32,717 bases of DNA from a virus: positions 1 to 32,717 of IMG/VR virus record IMGVR_UViG_3300035698_020564; one strand, given 5' to 3'. Made by a program: the position numbers and the translations under genes. Below the pieces are notes generated by a model. That model was not told the origin of the DNA and ran no database searches. It saw nothing but the letters and a program-made list of their open reading frames with translations. Each line of letters starts with the position of its first letter. Within the stretch, counting starts at the first letter, position 1. Shown here one piece after another: positions 22,590 to 29,053 of the stretch.

Positions 22590-22617
22590 ATTATCTCACG
22601 AATTAACGTAAAGTCAA
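22590..22617 (-). promoter_or_regulatory. Sigma70-type promoter for the packaging/virion operon
   Basis: On the minus strand TTGACT, a 16-bp spacer and TGAGATAAT (an extended -10, GATAAT with TG) lie about 50-75 bp upstream of terS. Transcription would start near 22583. It directly follows the terminator of the lysis cassette, so it restarts transcription for terminase and structural genes. The spacer contains an imperfect ACG/CGT dyad that could be an operator. Confidence 0.7.
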
Positions 22618-22662: not shown

Positions 22663-22724
22663 AAAAAAGGGATGCTTTTCTGCAACTTTTCATCAAGAAA
22701 ATTGCAACAAAACAGCAACATCCC
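22663..22724 (-). terminator. Intrinsic terminator after the lysis cassette
   Basis: On the minus strand GGGATG and CATCCC close a long imperfect hairpin whose inner arms contain TTGCAA-TTTTC and GAAAA-GTTGCA around TTGAT, followed by TTTTTT (22663-22668). It lies between the lipoprotein gene and the terS promoter. Confidence 0.8.
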
Positions 22725-22793: not shown

Positions 22794-23066
22794 TTAGCGC
22801 CACGTTTCGCAGCTTTTAATTAATAACTGCTCATATTTCCATTCACTCGTTACATGATTTAAGCGAACAACAACCCACAAAGAAGGGTCTAAATGCTCCA
22901 AATATTTCCACTGAAGAACATTATCATCGTCAAGCCTTTCAATTACACCTCTATTTATATCTATCCGCCATAGCTCAGTTTCGAATTCTTTTTCTGGCGG
23001 TAAGCTAGCACAAGAAATCAAAAGACATGCTAAAATTGTTAAAACAAATCCTATGTGTATTCTCAT
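22794..23066 (-). CDS. Small outer-membrane lipoprotein (o-spanin-like candidate)
   Basis: This 90-residue protein has a lipoprotein signal peptide: FVLTILACLLISC with lipobox LISC, Cys19 as the lipidated residue, then ASLPPEKEF. Residue +2 is Ala, consistent with outer-membrane sorting. The mature part is beta-rich (ETELWRIDINRGVIERL, then LWVVVRLNHV) and ends with a second Cys (IKSCETWR). It overlaps the preceding small membrane gene by ATGA and follows a holin-like gene, the layout of holin/Rz/Rz1 cassettes. It is not very Pro-rich as many Rz1 proteins are, so spanin function is a hypothesis. Confidence 0.7.
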   Translation of the reverse strand: MRIHIGFVLTILACLLISCASLPPEKEFETELWRIDINRGVIERLDDDNVLQWKYLEHLDPSLWVVVRLNHVTSEWKYEQLLIKSCETWR

Positions 23067-23257
23067 TGTGTTTTTTCCAGTTTTTTAAGCACTTCTAGGC
23101 TTTTTAACTTGGTGTAATCATCAAGAGCAGCGTTAATTTTTGCTGTCGCTGTTTTATAGGCTATATCTTTTCTATATTTAGCCAAAGCATCTAAAAACTT
23201 AGGCAATTCTAAAGCCAAAAACTTAAGAACTGCTAAAATAGTTGTTAAATAATTCAT
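23063..23257 (-). CDS. Small membrane-anchored helical protein (i-spanin-like candidate)
   Basis: The best start is ATG 23257, overlapping the holin-like gene's stop (TAATG), giving 64 residues. Residues about 2-23 (NYLTTILAVLKFLALELPKF) can span or line the membrane; the rest is a charged alpha-helix (YRKDIAYKTATAKINAALDD, then LKSLEVLKKLEK). An N-terminal anchor plus periplasmic coiled coil, immediately before a lipoprotein, is the i-spanin layout, although it is short for one. It could also be a holin partner. Confidence 0.6.
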   Translation of the reverse strand: MNYLTTILAVLKFLALELPKFLDALAKYRKDIAYKTATAKINAALDDYTKLKSLEVLKKLEKTQ

Positions 23258-23526
23258 TATTTTGGCAATTTGATTGAAAGTGACCAATCAAGGATATAAA
23301 TAACGATTTTATAAATTACATTCTTTTTAATCTTAGCTAGTTTTTTGTTATCCGATTTTGTTGGAGTTCTTTCAATATATTTTGTAATAGCTGTCATAAT
23401 AGGTTTCATGAAAATTCTAAAAGTTGCCATGAAAAAAACTATTGTTGCTACGATAGGATAATCAGCCCCAAAACTTGTGATAATCGGTCCTAAAACATCC
23501 CAAATTGAAGTTATTGATTCGTACAT
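23257..23526 (-). CDS. Holin-like membrane protein
   Basis: This 89-residue protein starts at ATG 23526 behind AAAGGGGGAA. It has a hydrophobic segment at about 23-47 (DYPIVATIVFFMATFRIF), then a conserved-looking IMTAITKYIERTPTKSDN and a C-terminal amphipathic stretch ending VIYILDWSLSIKLPK. I know this pattern (membrane segment, 'KP.M..IE.Y...TPS.SD', final 'D...SIK') from small phage membrane proteins beside lysis genes, usually suspected holins. It heads a coupled three-gene set and has its own promoter-like sequence upstream. No endolysin gene accompanies it here. Confidence 0.65.
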   Translation of the reverse strand: MYESITSIWDVLGPIITSFGADYPIVATIVFFMATFRIFMKPIMTAITKYIERTPTKSDNKKLAKIKKNVIYKIVIYILDWSLSIKLPK

Positions 23527-23549
23527 AAATTCCCCCTTTTTTTAAGTTT

Positions 23550-23587
23550 CTATCTCTATTTTATCATTATGAGATAGTTTATTGCAA
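23550..23587 (-). promoter_or_regulatory. Putative promoter with operator-like inverted repeat before the holin-like gene
   Basis: On the minus strand TTGCAA (23582-23587), an 18-bp spacer and TAAAAT (23558-23563) make a moderate sigma70 match. A perfect 7-bp inverted repeat, CTATCTC and GAGATAG with 14 bp between, covers the spacer and -10 (23550-23577), where a regulator could block polymerase. It could also act as an RNA hairpin, but no U-run follows. Confidence 0.5.
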
Positions 23588-23600
23588 CAAGATTAATCTC

Positions 23601-24758
23601 TTACTCTTTACTAAAAGATAACATTATAAATAAAGCATATATTAACGCTAGGTGTCCGTAATGAATCGGATATGAAAAAATCATTGCTGAGCCTAAAGCG
23701 CAATTTGTAGCGAATAAATAGCTCAGATTTCGTGTTTTTATCAAAGCCCATATAAACATATTAAAAGTTAAAACAAGTCCAATTATGCCAGTTTCGCGAA
23801 GAATTGAAATTAAATCTGAGTGCGCCCACATAAACCATTCTTTAATAAAAAAATTGTTTTCTAATTGAACACCCATTCCATACAGCGGAAAAGTCCCTAA
23901 ACCCTCACCTGTCCAAATTTTAGATTTATTAAAAAAGTTTTCTAAGGTTAATCTATAAAATTCTAGCCTACTCGAATCATTAAAGAAATGTTTGTCTGTC
24001 AAGAATCCTATAGTCAATAAAATGCATATTATGGCAATCGGAAAACCTAATTTATACCTGAATTTGTCGCTTAATATGAAAGTATATGAACAAAGAGCAA
24101 CAATTAAGACCCCAATCGGAACGGAAGCTTTCATCAAAAAAATTGCAACAATTGGGAGGATCAAAAGACATACTCTTATACTTACTTTGAACTTATTTAA
24201 TTTATTTGGAATAACCTGTTTAATAAAAAGAAGCGGATATGTTGCGGCAAGAAATATGCCATTCGGGGCAGAAACACCATACAAACCGCCTTTCAATCTG
24301 ATATTCCAGCCTATAAAATGACAAATTATCAAATAAATAGAGTTTACAAGTGATAAAAAAGCAATTGTCCTATAAATATCAATAGGAAATAATTTCTCTG
24401 ACAAATAATCAACAGCATAAACAACAAGTAAAACAGCTATGCAACTAGTCATTGTTAAAATTGCTGCAATTTGAATTCCATCGTTGGGATTAATACATTT
24501 CCCCATATAAACACCTATAGCGATATTTATATATCTCAATCCGTCCGGAAAATTCCACTGGTAGCTTGAAACGTATAAGCTAGTTGAAATTACCCATAAA
24601 AAAAGAAGCGAAACACTGAAATGATATTTTTGCCAAAGTTTCCAAGCAATAATTAATGTCGAAAAACAAAGAAATAATGCAAACTGGACCCAAAAATATT
24701 GCTCTTTATAGTGAAAAAAGCTAATAAAAGTAAAAGCTAAAAAGAAAAAATACCTCAT
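23601..24758 (-). CDS. O-antigen polymerase/ligase-like (Wzy_C family) membrane protein
   Basis: This 385-residue protein has about ten to twelve hydrophobic segments over its whole length (for example VQFALFLCFSTLIIAW, IAAILTMTSCIAVLLVV, IGVLIVALCSYTFIL). Near residues 285-335 it has the Wzy/WaaL family pattern: IWTGEGLGTFPLYGMGVQ followed by WAHSDLISILRETGIIGLVL, matching the 'G.G.G.F ... AH.D.L..L.E.GI.G' block in a periplasmic loop. Such enzymes polymerise or ligate lipid-linked glycans at the inner membrane. In a phage this could alter host surface glycans and block superinfection, as phage D3 and epsilon15 do with their Wzy proteins. It lies between the Ser-X repeat gene and the lysis cassette. 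Confidence 0.75.
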   Translation of the reverse strand: MRYFFFLAFTFISFFHYKEQYFWVQFALFLCFSTLIIAWKLWQKYHFSVSLLFLWVISTSLYVSSYQWNFPDGLRYINIAIGVYMGKCINPNDGIQIAAILTMTSCIAVLLVVYAVDYLSEKLFPIDIYRTIAFLSLVNSIYLIICHFIGWNIRLKGGLYGVSAPNGIFLAATYPLLFIKQVIPNKLNKFKVSIRVCLLILPIVAIFLMKASVPIGVLIVALCSYTFILSDKFRYKLGFPIAIICILLTIGFLTDKHFFNDSSRLEFYRLTLENFFNKSKIWTGEGLGTFPLYGMGVQLENNFFIKEWFMWAHSDLISILRETGIIGLVLTFNMFIWALIKTRNLSYLFATNCALGSAMIFSYPIHYGHLALIYALFIMLSFSKE

Positions 24759-24793
24759 TTAATATTTCATCCTATGCTCTACTAAAACCATTC

Positions 24794-24958
24794 TTACCAA
24801 GACCCAGACAAAGACCCAGACCCAGACCAAGACCAAGACCAAGACCCAGGCAAAGACCCAGACCAAGACCAAGACCCAGACCCAGACCAAGACCAAGACC
24901 TAGACCTAGACCTAGACAAAGACCTAGACCAACCACAGCGTAATATTGCTTGATTCAT
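24794..24958 (-). CDS. Ser-X dipeptide repeat microprotein
   Basis: ATG 24958 lies 1 bp after the previous stop and opens a 54-residue frame: MNQAILRCGW followed by 22 dipeptides. Of these 21 are Ser-X and one Pro-Gly, with X = Trp (8), Gly (7), Arg (4) or Leu (3). At DNA level they are hexamers TCT-NGG or TCT-TTG. The frame stays open across the whole array and stops two bases-worth of codons after no further repeat, in TGG-TAA, which supports coding. Translation would be coupled to the upstream gene. Small phage proteins with Gly/Ser/aromatic dipeptide runs exist, but I know no function. A Trp-rich repeat could bind membranes or glycans. Confidence 0.6.
   Translation of the reverse strand: MNQAILRCGWSRSLSRSRSRSWSWSGSGSWSWSGSLPGSWSWSWSGSGSLSGSW
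24797..24928 (-). repeat. Hexanucleotide repeat array, 22 units
   Basis: Twenty-two consecutive hexamers fill 132 bp. On the minus strand units are TCTAGG, TCTTGG, TCTGGG or TCTTTG (one CCTGGG). Most variation is at the fourth base, switching the encoded residue among Arg, Trp and Gly without shifting frame. Unit loss or gain keeps the frame. Confidence 0.9.
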
Positions 24959-24959
24959 T

Positions 24960-25289
24960 TTACTTTATTCCACTAGGTAGTGAATCAATTATACACGCAT
25001 CTATAACAGCGCCTCTTCCTATAATAACTAATTTATCTCCGTACGGCTCTTGCTCTTTAAAAACACAGTCTTTAACAGACTCATTCCATCTTTTAGTTTC
25101 AGGTATCCAACATGCTTTTTCTAGGACTAGCTCATTCTTGCATACTTTAACAAGCTTACCTGTGTATATAAACGTCACAGTACGTATAAGATAATTCTCT
25201 CCAACTAAATAAGGGTGCGCCTCTACATTAGTTTGTAACGCTGTTAACTCTCTTACTTGCCTCAATGTTAAATCATTTAAATCAATCAT
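24960..25289 (-). CDS. Conserved phage protein of unknown function
   Basis: This 109-residue protein starts at ATG 25289 (AAAGGAC upstream). It has the block YLIRTVTFIYTGKLVKVCKN, then VLEKACWIPETKRW and LVIIGRGAVIDACIID. I recognise this layout ('R.VT...TG.L.....EL.L..A.WI.DTGR......... VIIGRGAI.DA') from hypothetical proteins of many proteobacterial phages, where it is a small beta-rich protein without a known role. An N-terminal helix (NDLTLRQVRELTALQTNVEA) precedes it. It follows a second conserved hypothetical and is coupled to the Ser-X gene. Confidence 0.6.
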   Translation of the reverse strand: MIDLNDLTLRQVRELTALQTNVEAHPYLVGENYLIRTVTFIYTGKLVKVCKNELVLEKACWIPETKRWNESVKDCVFKEQEPYGDKLVIIGRGAVIDACIIDSLPSGIK

Positions 25290-25332
25290 CTTTAATGTCC
25301 TTTCTTTACATATAAAAATTTATATCTCAATC

Positions 25333-25761
25333 TTACTCATCTTTCTTACATACGTTTAACAGACTTAAAAACTTATCAGCTTCTTTTCTGTCTGACTCTT
25401 TTTCATCTTCAGAAAGATTCTTATAGTCTGTTCCAATTTGTCTTTGCCATCTATCTATTGCCCAAACAGGGATCATAATACCACCTGTTACGGGGTTTAC
25501 TGCGCATTTGCTAAACAAATATTTCATCCATCCAGACCATTGCTCATGGCATAAATTAGCTAAAGATTCTCTTAATTCATCTCTATTGACTTTCTTTTGA
25601 TGCTCAATCCTACGCAGCTCTGACTTTGAACTAAAGCCTTTTTCTTTTTCTTTTAGTTTACATTTTTCACACGTACTATGCTTAGTTCTATCCATGCCTT
25701 CCATTTTATATTGCGCTATGACTACGCCGCAATATAAGCACGTTTCAACTATATGTCCCAT
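25333..25761 (-). CDS. Conserved phage protein with zinc ribbon and 'HEQWSGWM' motif
   Basis: This 142-residue protein starts at ATG 25761 behind AAGGAAGGGAAATAA. The N-terminus has a zinc ribbon (CLYC at 8-11, CEKC at 31-34). The C-terminal part has LANLCHEQWSGWMKYLFSK, GGIMIPVWAIDRWQRQ and LSEDEKESDRKEADKFL, a helical domain widespread in phage genomes as a stand-alone hypothetical protein; here it is joined to a ribbon. It starts inside the preceding 30-codon frame (13-bp overlap) and is the first sizeable gene after the attenuated promoter. The zinc ribbon would allow nucleic-acid binding, but no function is established to my knowledge. Confidence 0.65.
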   Translation of the reverse strand: MGHIVETCLYCGVVIAQYKMEGMDRTKHSTCEKCKLKEKEKGFSSKSELRRIEHQKKVNRDELRESLANLCHEQWSGWMKYLFSKCAVNPVTGGIMIPVWAIDRWQRQIGTDYKNLSEDEKESDRKEADKFLSLLNVCKKDE

Positions 25762-25841
25762 TTATTTCCCTTCCTTAAATTTTCTAAATATCTCTCTTTC
25801 TCCAATTTTTTAATATCTTTTAAGACCAATTTAAGAGCCAT
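25749..25841 (-). CDS. 30-residue leader peptide
   Basis: ATG 25841 follows a good GAAGGAG site. The frame encodes MALKLVLKDIKKLEKERYLE and ten more residues and stops in TAG inside the next gene (13-bp overlap). It is one amphipathic basic helix. It is the first frame after the terminator at 25886-25916, so it may couple or regulate translation of the zinc-ribbon protein that follows. Confidence 0.5.
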   Translation of the reverse strand: MALKLVLKDIKKLEKERYLENLRKGNKWDI

Positions 25842-25885
25842 AGATGCTCCTTCGCCGAACTGCAAGTCTAAAGTTTCACAGCTCC

Positions 25886-25916
25886 AAAAAAAATAGCCCT
25901 AACAAAATGCTAGGGC
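25886..25916 (-). terminator. Strong intrinsic terminator just after the consensus promoter
   Basis: On the minus strand GCCCTAGC and GTTAGGGC form an 8-bp stem (one G-U pair) around ATTTT, followed by TA and eight T's. It lies about 35 nt downstream of the predicted start of transcription, so most transcripts should stop here unless antiterminated. Confidence 0.88.
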
Positions 25917-25952
25917 CTATGAAAAAAGGAAAAAATAAGAAGAAAAGCTACA
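25886..25952 (-). ncRNA. Candidate ~67-nt terminated leader RNA (6S/tR'-like)
   Basis: The interval runs from the expected start site, about seven bases beyond a perfect promoter, to the end of the U-run of a strong terminator. No start codon lies in it. The RNA would begin with about 35 nt that are nearly all pyrimidine (CTTTTCTTCTTATTTTTTCC on the minus strand) and end in the terminator hairpin. It may be a regulatory RNA or simply the attenuated leader of the downstream operon. Confidence 0.6.
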
Positions 25953-25958
25953 GGTGAA

Positions 25959-25987
25959 ATTATACATTTTATTATTTTCCTTGTCAA
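25959..25987 (-). promoter_or_regulatory. Perfect consensus sigma70 promoter
   Basis: On the minus strand TTGACA (25982-25987), exactly 17 bp, and TATAAT (25959-25964): both hexamers are perfect matches. The spacer is almost all A/T. Transcription would start near 25952 and run toward the lysis and virion genes. The promoter begins 7 bp after the stop of a 31-codon gene stump. Confidence 0.92.
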
Positions 25988-25993
25988 ACAGCA

Positions 25994-26089
25994 TTAAGCC
26001 ATAACCTTTGAAACTTCTCTTTGAAACATAGCTTCGGCTTTTCCATTTGCTAGGTTTCCAAGGGTTAATTTTTCTGTTTGACTGTTCAC
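25994..26089 (-). CDS. 31-codon frame, possibly a truncated phage gene
   Basis: A GTG start at 26089 follows AAAGGAGGAAAAT, a near-perfect ribosome-binding site; the ATG two bases upstream is immediately followed by TGA and cannot be used. The frame reads MNSQTEKLTLGNLANGKAEA and eleven more residues, then TAA. The LTLGNLANG...F.RE..KV segment resembles, from memory, the start of ~100-residue phage proteins near replication genes, so this may be the N-terminal remnant of one. The consensus promoter begins right after it, as if an insertion or deletion replaced the rest. Confidence 0.5.
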   Translation of the reverse strand: MNSQTEKLTLGNLANGKAEAMFQREVSKVMA

Positions 26090-26104
26090 ATTTTCCTCCT
26101 TTAG

Positions 26105-26326
26105 TTAAATTTTTGCTCTTTCAAATACGGTTTTAAATACTTCAGCATTTATAAAATAACTGTTTTGCTTGTGACAATTTGGGCATTCAAGCTTTGAAAC
26201 AATTGTTTGAAGATGAATTTCAGAAGCCCATGAGCATGAACATTCTCTGCAAATAGCAATGCCAGTTATCCATTTCTTGTCATTATATTGATCAATATGA
26301 GTTATTATAGCGTTATTTTCAATCAT
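26105..26326 (-). CDS. Small zinc-ribbon protein
   Basis: This 73-residue protein starts at ATG 26326, overlapping the upstream membrane microprotein by 8 bp (ATGATTGA). It has a four-cysteine ribbon, CREC at 26-29 and CPNC at 48-51, with Cys31 and His52 nearby, in the layout 'C..C...W.........L.CP.C' common to small phage zinc proteins. Nucleic-acid or protein binding is likely; the exact role is unknown. It is the last intact gene before the consensus promoter, where lambdoid phages place the late antiterminator, so a regulatory role is worth testing. Confidence 0.65.
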   Translation of the reverse strand: MIENNAIITHIDQYNDKKWITGIAICRECSCSWASEIHLQTIVSKLECPNCHKQNSYFINAEVFKTVFERAKI

Positions 26327-26495
26327 CCTTAAAAGCCTCTAGAAGCTCTTTGTCGTACTTTTGAGTAAGATGAAAGCCATCTTTAACAGCAAAATATGAT
26401 ATTACTGAAAGCATAGCTACTAAAACACCTGCCAAAAACCAAAAACCACAACAATAAAATCTATCATTATTTTGGTTTGTTTTTATTTCACTCAT
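26319..26495 (-). CDS. 58-residue single-span membrane microprotein
   Basis: ATG 26495 overlaps the stop of the sponge-like gene (ATGA) and the frame ends inside the zinc-ribbon gene start. The protein has a polar N-terminus (MSEIKTNQNNDRF), one membrane segment with two cysteines (YCCGFWFLAGVLVAMLSVIS) and a charged C-terminus (FHLTQKYDKELLEAFKDD). The tight overlaps on both sides support it as a real gene. Function unknown. Confidence 0.6.
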   Translation of the reverse strand: MSEIKTNQNNDRFYCCGFWFLAGVLVAMLSVISYFAVKDGFHLTQKYDKELLEAFKDD

Positions 26496-26899
26496 GCTTT
26501 GTTTTCTCCCTCAACGCCTCTTTCTTCTCTGTCTTTTTTTCTTTTATTAAGCCACATAAGAGCTTCGTCTAGTTTAGTTATAGCCATAGCGTTTTCTCTA
26601 CATGGAAAATAATTATTTAACCCTTCAATAATCTTCTTACTTGCTTCGATAATCGTATCAACCTGACAACCATTAACGCCATGCTCCTTAACAGGGCCAT
26701 TTTGTAAAGTGAATGAGAGAGAATTTTTATCATTTCTCACGTATATAAAGTTGTTTGGTCTGATATCTTTCTCAAACCATTTATAATCCATTCCACCACT
26801 TTCATTAAATTTTTCAGGGAATTTTTCTCTCAATTCATCCATTATTATTAAGTTAAACCCATCAATTTTTTCTAATCCTTTTAAAGTTTCTAAAGCCAT
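26492..26899 (-). CDS. Acb2/Tad1-hairpin-domain protein (putative anti-CBASS nucleotide sponge)
   Basis: The best start is ATG 26899 (MALETLKGLE, behind GAAAGGAAAAATTAAA), giving 135 residues; the frame is open to 26968 but the extra residues look non-native. The C-terminal part, about 60-131, has SFTLQNGPVKEHGVNGCQ, a helix, then PCRENAMAITKLDEALMWL and REERGVEG. The 'P.RE...AITKLEEA..WL' helical hairpin is the signature of the Acb2 family, whose members bind cyclic oligonucleotides and blunt CBASS defence. The N-terminal ~60 residues are an added domain of unknown role. Binding activity is inferred from the family; the GVNGCQ block is shared by longer phage homologues. Confidence 0.72.
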   Translation of the reverse strand: MALETLKGLEKIDGFNLIIMDELREKFPEKFNESGGMDYKWFEKDIRPNNFIYVRNDKNSLSFTLQNGPVKEHGVNGCQVDTIIEASKKIIEGLNNYFPCRENAMAITKLDEALMWLNKRKKDREERGVEGENKA

Positions 26900-27031
26900 T
26901 TTAATTTTTCCTTTCATAATAATAAACATCCATATTTGCCATGAGACGCGAAAGAATATCGAATCCATAGTTTCATATGGAAAACATCAAAACATAACAT
27001 TTAAGCTACGTTTTGCAAAGATAACGCGATT

Positions 27032-27233: not shown

Positions 27234-27377
27234 TTATTGTATCGCAATATGTAGCCATTTTTGAATATCCTCCAATATAAACATAAAAAAATAACGCATC
27301 TCATATGCAGCTGTAATAATAAATAAGCTGATTGCAAAAATTAAAGCCCAATTTTCATTTTTATTTTTATTATCCAT
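27234..27377 (-). CDS. 47-residue single-span membrane microprotein
   Basis: ATG 27377 overlaps the helicase-loader stop (ATGGATAA). The protein is MDNKNKNENW, then a membrane segment (ALIFAISLFIITAAYEM) and a second, more amphipathic aromatic stretch (RYFFMFILEDIQKWLHI). A GTG start for the next gene lies one base after its stop. Such small membrane genes are frequent in phage early regions; role unknown. Confidence 0.5.
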   Translation of the reverse strand: MDNKNKNENWALIFAISLFIITAAYEMRYFFMFILEDIQKWLHIAIQ

Positions 27378-28047
27378 GGTTTATTCTCCTAAGACTATTC
27401 CCGTCAAAAACAATTACTTTAGAAGTAGATCTTAAACGGTCTAAAATCCTTTCAGCATACGTTTTTTTCAACTGTTCTTTACTTAAGTTTGTTGTGATTA
27501 TACTTGTAAGCTGACGACTATATCTTTCAGAAATTATAGAATCAACTTTTGTCAAAACCCATGACGCGGTATGCTCTGCCCCTAAATCATCGATTACTAA
27601 AAGTTTTGATGTTTTAATCTTTTGTTCAAATTTATAAAATTCGATAGGATCTTTTGCTTTAAGAGAAAAAAGCTTATCAAGCAAACAAGGCATTGAAATA
27701 AAAAAACCTGATTTATCATGTTTCAGCAAATACTCGACTAAAAGAGCAATTGCAAATGTAGTTTTCATTGTTCCAACCGCACCAAGCATTATTAAACCTT
27801 CTCCATTTTCAATATTTTCGACGAGATTCTTTCTATAATCTAAAACACTTGCATATTGCGCTTTAACTTGCTCAGGAATTGTTTTCTCGATAATGTAATC
27901 AAAATCTATCTTCTGAAATCTTTTGTTTATCCCTGCTTTAACTAGTTTTTCGCTTTTAATATTTTTCCAATTTTGACAGTCAAAATATTTATTCTGAAAA
28001 TAACAATCTTCTTTCTCTACTCGTTTATTCATGCATAGCCCTGCCAT
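27370..28047 (-). CDS. DnaC-like helicase loader ATPase
   Basis: ATG 28047, one base after the replication-initiator stop, is the likely start (225 residues); an in-frame ATG at 28140 would overlap that gene by 92 bp. The N-terminus has Cys5, Cys15 and Cys24, possibly zinc-binding as in DnaC/DnaI. The AAA+ core has Walker A GAVGTMKTT (89-97, with Met where Gly is usual before Lys), Walker B KLLVIDDLGAEH (147-158), sensor I SIITTNLS and ERILDRLRS carrying the arginine finger. It loads the replicative helicase at the origin together with the O-like protein. No helicase gene lies in this window, so the phage probably uses the host's. Confidence 0.88.
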   Translation of the reverse strand: MAGLCMNKRVEKEDCYFQNKYFDCQNWKNIKSEKLVKAGINKRFQKIDFDYIIEKTIPEQVKAQYASVLDYRKNLVENIENGEGLIMLGAVGTMKTTFAIALLVEYLLKHDKSGFFISMPCLLDKLFSLKAKDPIEFYKFEQKIKTSKLLVIDDLGAEHTASWVLTKVDSIISERYSRQLTSIITTNLSKEQLKKTYAERILDRLRSTSKVIVFDGNSLRRINHG

Positions 28048-28048
28048 T

Positions 28049-28828
28049 TCACAAAACATCCCAGCCATCAGCCCTTGCCTTTTCTGCTTCTTCTTTCCAA
28101 TTGACCTCACTAGGTCTGTACCCAACTTTAACTTTTCCATCTCCCCCCCCTTTTTTCCTAAAAGGACTTTTTAACCAATTGCTAAATGCAGCAGTATAAT
28201 TTTTATATTTCTTCCCATTTGCTTCTAAATAATTTTTAAATATGTCTAGCTGCTCATAGATTTTTTCTACAGTGTCAGCTTTCAACCATTCCTCTTGTAT
28301 TTTTTTAGAAGGTTTAAGAATATTTATATAAAAATCTAAAAGTTCTTTTGGCATTGCAGTGCGTAGTTGTTCAGTAATATCTTCATAACCATATTCGTTA
28401 TTTTTATATTTTTTTCTTTTTTTATATATTTTTTTATCTTTATCTTTATCTTTATCTTTATCTTTATCTACTGTTGCAAGTCGCTTGCAAGTCGCTTGCA
28501 AGTTTTTAGTTGTGTTGTCCTTTAATTCCAATAGTTTAGGGTATTTGATTATTAGTTTGTCTTCTTTCCTACATGACTTTAAACTGAGTTTATTATCAAG
28601 ATAAACTAAGAATAAACTAAGTTTATTATTCTTTAGACCTAATAACGCCTTGAGTTGTCTCTCTGTTATCTCTAATATCGGCTCGAAATTGTTAGCTTGC
28701 GTCATATTCTTAGCGATAGCTTCGCATAATATCCAATATCTTTCTACAAAACCCCATCCGAATTTTTCCCTAATTGACGCAAGTGAGCTATTGTTGTTAG
28801 CGTCAGAAAAATGCTTAAACCATTTCAT
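28049..28828 (-). CDS. Replication initiator (phage O / DnaD-like)
   Basis: This 259-residue protein starts at ATG 28828 behind GGAGGAAG. The N-terminal domain (1-105) is the phage replisome-organiser winged helix: MKWFKHFSDANNNSSL, FGWGFVERYWILCEAI, ILEITERQLKALLGL, LIIKYPKLLE. A linker of six Asp-Lys pairs (about 121-132) follows, then a basic stretch and a C-terminal helical domain (ELLDFYINILKPSK, then YTAAFSNWLKSPF) that probably contacts the helicase loader encoded next. The repeat cluster coding for residues 109-132 looks like the origin itself, as in lambda O. Confidence 0.82.
   Translation of the reverse strand: MKWFKHFSDANNNSSLASIREKFGWGFVERYWILCEAIAKNMTQANNFEPILEITERQLKALLGLKNNKLSLFLVYLDNKLSLKSCRKEDKLIIKYPKLLELKDNTTKNLQATCKRLATVDKDKDKDKDKDKKIYKKRKKYKNNEYGYEDITEQLRTAMPKELLDFYINILKPSKKIQEEWLKADTVEKIYEQLDIFKNYLEANGKKYKNYTAAFSNWLKSPFRKKGGGDGKVKVGYRPSEVNWKEEAEKARADGWDVL
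28391..28502 (-). other. Candidate phage replication origin: iterons plus AT-rich tract
   Basis: At 28474-28502 the 7-bp element TTGCAAG occurs three times at an exact 11-bp period (spacer TCGC), each with the palindrome TTGCAA. Next to it, 28391-28470 is nearly all A/T, including about five TATCTT hexamers (28435-28464) and long T runs on the plus strand. Iterons beside an AT-rich unwinding tract, inside the initiator gene, is the lambda ori layout. Confidence 0.55.
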
Positions 28829-28878
28829 TATAAACTTCCTCCAGCCATGTATAAAACATTTATTAAAGCCCCCTCCAA

Positions 28879-28936
28879 TAAAAAAAGCCTCTTACAGGTG
28901 ATGGGTCACGAATGACGCTGCAAAAGGCTCTTTTTT
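28879..28936. terminator. Bidirectional intrinsic terminator with nested small hairpins
   Basis: AGCCTCTTACA (28886-28896) and TGCAAAAGGCT (28919-28929) form an 11-bp stem with two G-U wobbles on the minus strand, with T-runs on both sides (seven A's at 28879-28885 on plus, six T's at 28931-28936). The 22-nt loop can itself form GTCA-TTCG-TGAC on the minus strand (28905-28916) or GTGA-TGGG-TCAC on plus. It ends the recombination module before the replication genes. Confidence 0.8.
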
Positions 28937-29053
28937 ATAAAATATTATAGTAAAACGTTTATAACTATTAATTATAATTAATATTAATAAAATACAAGCA
29001 AATTCTGAACCCATCGAATAAAATTATAAGCTTCTGAAATAGATTGTCAATAA

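Follow-up and report, generated by a model that had tools for sequence, protein, structure and literature searches.

A consensus promoter directed into a nearby intrinsic terminator in an uncultivated phage genome: a candidate attenuation unit

Introduction

What does a perfect promoter serve when a strong terminator follows it almost at once? Lambdoid phages offer well-known cases of promoter-proximal attenuation, which has been little mapped in uncultivated phages. The question arises at the border of two gene blocks in the virus record IMGVR_UViG_3300035698_020564. The window analysed is the entire linear IMG/VR record, 32,717 bases in length, with a GC content of 34%.

Gene layout and relatives used

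Nearly all genes of the window are carried by the minus strand. The features flanking the unit (promoter P1, transcript RNA1, terminator T1) are as follows.

27370..28828, minus: replication genes after a second terminator, T2.
28049..28828, minus: 259-aa replication-type protein.
27370..28140, minus: DnaC/IstB-like helicase loader.
26492..26914, minus: ORF with an Acb2/Tad1 hairpin domain (PF24729, above the Pfam cut-off).
26105..26326, minus: 73-aa zinc-ribbon ORF.
25996..26090, minus: 31-aa ORF with an AGGAGG site (VNSQTEKLTLGNLANGKAEAMFQREVSKVMA), ending just upstream of P1.
22794..25842, minus: gene block after T1, with a 27-aa ORF, a 142-aa RyR-like ORF, a 109-aa ORF, a 385-aa Wzy_C-like ORF, two small membrane ORFs and a lipoprotein-like ORF.

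The replication operon upstream of P1-T1 comprises the DnaC-like gene, the gene of the Acb2/Tad1-hairpin-type protein, the zinc ribbon and the 31-aa ORF. The 31-aa ORF (26090..25996) has a strong ribosome site and no family match; it looks like the beginning of a phage protein that commonly carries the name 'replication terminator protein' and may be truncated ahead of P1. No promoter above noise is present inside the block 25842..22794, from T1 to the next terminator, T3. The designation of 'lysis genes' in the initial annotation holds only as far as small membrane- or lipoprotein-like ORFs without a family match go.

Three side observations concern these genes. The Acb2/Tad1-type ORF (26492..26914) encodes a possible anti-defence protein, and a homologue in the relative L105 precedes the late genes. 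The O-antigen ligase (Wzy_C)-like membrane protein (23601..24758, minus) scores just under the Pfam cut-off and possibly modifies the host surface. About 24 hexamers of the forms GGTCTT, GGTCTG and GGTCTA are arrayed at 24787..24930 on the minus strand, in the intergenic space between two genes.

Relatives were gathered via terminase, capsid, portal and replication protein (L105, L113, L115, L116/L118, L119 and L120). Closest by structural genes are L105 (terminase 56%, capsid 58%), L115 (terminase 53%, capsid 60%) and L113. L116/L118 are more distant structural-gene relatives.

The first unit

25959..25987, minus: P1, sigma70 consensus promoter TTGACA AGGAAAATAATAAAATG TATAAT, 12/12, 17-nt spacer.
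25886..25951, minus: RNA1, predicted transcript of ~66 nt (GUAGCUUUUCUUCUUAUUUUUUCCUUUUUUCAUAGGCCCUAGCAUUUUGUUAGGGCUAUUUUUUUU), first 34 nt 82% pyrimidine and unpaired.
25886..25917, minus: T1, intrinsic terminator with a 10-bp stem (25917..25895), a 3-nt loop, then eight U's.

The initial annotation had described a perfect consensus promoter, a terminator about 35 nt further on and a pyrimidine-rich leader between them. The promoter is present exactly as given (25987..25959, minus, 12/12). The stem of T1 begins 34 nt from +1, or 41 nt counted from the -10 box, and pyrimidines occupy 28 of the first 34 positions of RNA1, so the distance and the composition are likewise borne out. The hairpin had been given as 8 bp followed by eight U's; the U's are correct, the stem is longer, 10 bp. 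The start of RNA1 would be G25951, on an assumed discriminator of 7 nt.

The hairpin of T1 is stable for its composition (folding z = -3.75; 0/200 shuffles as stable). RNA1 is otherwise unstructured on folding, and no significant competing fold was detected in it by the energy test (p=0.09). Windows of 34 nt as pyrimidine-rich as the leader number 21 on the minus strand, genome-wide, 16 of them on the RNA1 tract. A 25-codon frame (MLFDKENNKMYNFTCSFSSYFFLFS) is open across P1 and the pyrimidine tract and stops at the hairpin, so part of the P1-T1 sequence could be coding. No Rfam family reaches the gathering threshold anywhere in the window. Since P1 meets a strong terminator almost at once, a short RNA and only partial transcription into the next genes are expected.

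Expectation by chance

The window holds two 12/12 promoters with 16-18 nt spacing; the average over 400 dinucleotide shuffles is 0.04. The shuffle probabilities are 0.04 for at least one and 0.0025 for at least two; two on the minus strand were found in 0/400. The pair is beyond chance. A lone perfect promoter (P about 0.04) would not be very remarkable; here both precede strong terminators. Across 1.50 Mb of other phage loci, five promoters of this quality occur, and a single one of them has a terminator no more than 220 nt further on, compared with 2/2 in the window; as many of those loci are near-duplicates, their rate is only approximate.

The second unit

The second promoter belongs to a unit at 29050..28878 (minus), which the initial annotation did not list.

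29023..29050, minus: P2, second 12/12 promoter, TTGACA-16-TATAAT.
28878..29016, minus: RNA2, predicted leader of ~137 nt, two mutually exclusive near-isoenergetic folds.
~28886..28931, minus: T2, terminator AGCCUUUUGCAG...CUGUAAGAGGCU, loop of about 20 nt, U7.

P2 lies directly after a VRR-NUC-like gene; T2 is just upstream of the ribosome site of the replication gene. The layout is that of P1-T1, placed before the replication genes; unlike RNA1, RNA2 looks like a two-state RNA. Fold 1 is the terminator. Fold 2 is an antiterminator closed by the 5' end of RNA2, in which GAUGGGUU..GAAU..UGCU pairs with the left arm and loop of the terminator (..GACCCAUC). Energies of the two states were computed with soft constraints. 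The gap between the folds is 0-2.5 kcal/mol, against 11-14 with shuffled 5' parts, and is equally low in 1/1500 shuffles (p about 0.0007). On folding at growing length, the antiterminator is favoured at lengths of ~115-134 nt, and the terminator takes over only once the transcript reaches ~136 nt. At full length, the terminator fold is ahead by 2.5-4.9 kcal/mol at 10-37 °C. Trimming of at least 2 nt from the 5' end weakens the antiterminator fold, so the alternative fold depends on the exact start site. As modelled, RNA2 may be a two-state RNA switch, a post hoc observation to be treated as a lead rather than a finding.

A search with RNA2 among phage genomes gave no match. In the replication-module relative L119 (DnaC-like protein 57% identical), a terminator also precedes the replication gene. 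Its leader (L119:4403-4508) has the layout of RNA2, the 5' AUGUCACA being perfectly complementary to UGUGACAU of the terminator loop (p=0.025). The two-state energy test was not significant for the leaders of L119, L120 and L123 (p 0.16, 0.94 and 0.53), and 5'-end/loop complementarity of the L119 type was not convincing in those of L120 and L123.

Two candidates were rejected. Similarity of RNA2 to OrzO-P (25.5 bits against a cut-off of 60, E 0.43) was taken as chance. The 9-mer TCACCTGTA, common to P1 and T2 and in P1 largely upstream of +1, is expected at about 0.08 by chance, by a rough estimate. A 40-codon frame (MGSEFACILLILIIINSYKRFTIIFYKKEPFAASFVTHHL; 29014..28892, minus) runs from the very start of RNA2 into the terminator, where its stop codon lies. 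Its product is hydrophobic, possibly a leaderless leader peptide or a small membrane peptide.

The terminase boundary

~22664..22720, minus: T3, strong terminator separating the block after T1 from the terminase genes.
22590..22617, minus: P3, TTGACT-16-GATAAT with an extended -10 (TG), 10/12, candidate promoter of the structural genes.

P3 sits 49 nt upstream of the terminase small subunit. T3 and P3 were absent from the initial annotation, which had placed P1 upstream of lysis, packaging and virion genes. By sequence, terminase has its own terminator and a candidate promoter. A single promoter for lysis, packaging and virion genes does not appear to be present, since T3 and P3 precede terminase. 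In L115 the same boundary carries a hairpin with a T run; in L116 and L118 a hairpin is joined by an 11/12 promoter (4845..4874 in L116). To judge from this arrangement, transcription of the structural genes seems to start separately, so P1-T1 would not be a single late-gene switch and would concern mainly the 3-kb block between T1 and T3.

Distribution among relatives

No 12/12 promoter with a terminator was found at the matching place in any relative examined. Between the Acb2-type gene and terminase, L105 has no coding-strand terminator and no strong promoter. L115, upstream region included, lacks both a perfect promoter and any promoter-terminator pair of the P1-T1 kind. A promoter-leader pattern search of IMG/VR returned no close relative of the unit, and blastn of the P1 region against phage genomes returned short chance matches only. 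As far as can be seen, the unit appears specific to this lineage; as it occurs in no relative found, no conservation shows that it is kept. Separately, a small ORF at L105:1743-1955, CsrA-like by eye, lies directly before the terminase large subunit.

Interpretation of the first unit

The favoured explanation, to which we give about an even chance, is that the block 25842..22794 is supplied from a strong promoter, P1, under promoter-proximal attenuation at T1. P1 would act as a very strong host-sigma70 promoter whose transcripts reach a strong intrinsic terminator within ~66 nt, where the replication operon gives way to the following gene block. T1 would stop transcripts coming from the replication operon. 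The block would be fed by P1 solely through read-through of T1, which would be a promoter-proximal attenuator that sets or gates it. As RNA1 has no alternative fold in cis, any regulation would have to come from a factor in trans. Established at the locus are the promoter, the leader, the terminator, the statistical excess, the lack of any other promoter above noise in the block, and the separate terminator and promoter of terminase. Beyond this, the reading assumes an active P1 in the host, an efficient T1 with some leakage or control, and a functional role for read-through. A 12/12 promoter and a strong terminator in the correct order and strand, present as two units and rare in other phage loci, argue for attenuation, as does the isolation of the terminase/structural operon by T3 and P3. 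Against it, an sRNA gene would give the same anatomy.

An sRNA gene is the main rival, although somewhat unlikely. P1-T1 would then yield a stable RNA of ~66 nt that targets phage or host mRNAs in trans, by an Hfq-type or anti-Shine-Dalgarno mechanism, and read-through would be slight. Phage sRNAs, lambda 6S included, are Hfq-dependent (PMC12197685). The unit is free-standing from promoter to terminator, and its unpaired pyrimidine tract is the most pyrimidine-rich place on the coding strand. A weak full-length match to mmgR/suhB (RF00519; 22.3 bits, E 0.16) points the same way, but the score is far under the cut-off of 41. Pairing of RNA1 with phage translation starts is no better than that of shuffled tracts (mean p=0.31); the best phage target, the dnaC-like start, gives -26.1 kcal/mol (p=0.115). 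The tract had been proposed as an antisense target, and as an antisense or anti-Shine-Dalgarno element it performs no better than its composition predicts. There are also no relatives in which RNA1 could be seen to be conserved. A further reading, very unlikely, denies the unit any regulatory role: T1 would do no more than close the replication operon, and P1 would be a strong promoter remaining in the gap, either dispensable or in decay. It agrees with the absence of P1-T1 at matching positions in L105, L115 and L116/L118, and with the 31-aa ORF just upstream, which may be a cut-short gene. An unused perfect promoter would, however, be expected to decay, and the genome has two such units, both directly before gene blocks.

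A lambda-PR'-like switch is unlikely. A phage antiterminator would load at P1 and carry polymerase through T1 (and T3), so that late genes are turned on. The initial annotation had drawn this parallel with lambda PR'/6S/tR'; its layout and geometry agree, whereas the specific Q reading finds no support (no Q found, no consensus pause, terminase separately promoted). For Q to act, a -10-like element must lie in the initially transcribed sequence and a Q binding site between -35 and -10 (PMC6606751). The only -10-like hexamer near the start of RNA1 is TAGCTT at +2 (3/6), which is weak, and no G, needed for the G-containing pause consensus, occurs in the leader from +5 to +34. The P1 spacer holds a 5-bp direct repeat, AAAAT, 8 bp apart (AAAATaatAAAAT), an arrangement found in only 2.8% of AT-rich 17-mers. 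Phage-21 Q sites have the same 8-bp repeat spacing (PMC6606751). The repeat lies in low-complexity AT-rich sequence and is missing from P2; the two spacers are unrelated, with no common motif. Terminase with its own terminator and promoter, and nearest relatives without the unit, also speak against the switch. A recognisable Q-like gene had been stated to be absent, and the ORFs scanned indeed gave no Q-type match in Pfam, PHROG or NCBIfam, on a linear contig that may be incomplete. The zinc ribbon, suggested instead as a new antiterminator, has only its position in favour and no antiterminator kinship: no family above cut-off, no relative in IMG/VR, no PDB match by sequence or fold. Its model is beta-rich and lacks an HTH; at pLDDT 62 it is of low confidence, and the fold search carries little weight.

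A broader proposal is unlikely: a promoter-leader-terminator chain would control gene blocks, RNA2 switching as its 5' end invades the terminator loop and RNA1 being opened in trans by a factor specific for its pyrimidine tract or promoter, as antitermination without Q, N or put.

As a phage control element, P1-T1 is genuine but of a widely known type. If read-through of T1 or T2 is regulated, P1-T1 and P2-T2 would be two compact elements (about 100 and 170 bp) with which to look for antiterminators or RNA switches not belonging to the Q, N or put families. If it is unregulated, each is an ordinary strong promoter with a terminator.

Comparison with known systems

N/nut elements are not evident in RNA1: best boxA 6/9, no boxB hairpin. 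The pIP501/Inc18 repR system, controlled by leader attenuation (PMC4981023), resembles RNA2 in having a promoter and a leader with a potentially attenuating terminator before a replication gene. It differs in that no convincing antisense promoter lies opposite RNA2, and no sequence relation is known.

The put RNA of HK022, ~70 nt with two stem-loops (PMC9378689), is like RNA1 a leader beside a phage promoter; unlike it, the RNA1 leader is unstructured apart from the terminator. Xp10 p7 is a small phage protein that lets host polymerase pass terminators before late genes (PMC6624301). A small ORF also adjoins P1; the 73-aa zinc ribbon, however, gave no match to a solved structure, that of p7 among them. 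The AlpA-controlled alpB promoter of Pseudomonas aeruginosa (PMC7969949) shares the order promoter, intrinsic terminator, lysis-type genes. The AlpA binding motif GGGACGN5GGTA (PMC7969949) is absent from the P1 and P2 spacers, and no AlpA-type protein was recognised among the scanned ORFs.

The PR'-tR' regions of the lambdoid phages (lambda, 21, 82) have, like P1-T1, a strong promoter, a short RNA and an intrinsic terminator, positioned after replication genes and before later genes. P1-T1 differs from them: no Q gene was found, a convincing sigma-dependent pause element is missing, terminase is separately terminated and promoted, and RNA1 is short (~66 nt) and pyrimidine-rich. AlpA, p7 and put show unrelated factors acting on one layout, so regulated antitermination may occur here through a factor other than Q. 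A strong promoter, a short leader, an intrinsic terminator and then a gene block in which no further promoter rises above noise are common to P1-T1, lambda PR'-tR', phage 21 PR'-tR', the terminators controlled by Xp10 p7 and the Pseudomonas AlpA targets, which makes promoter-proximal attenuation a reasonable reading of P1-T1.
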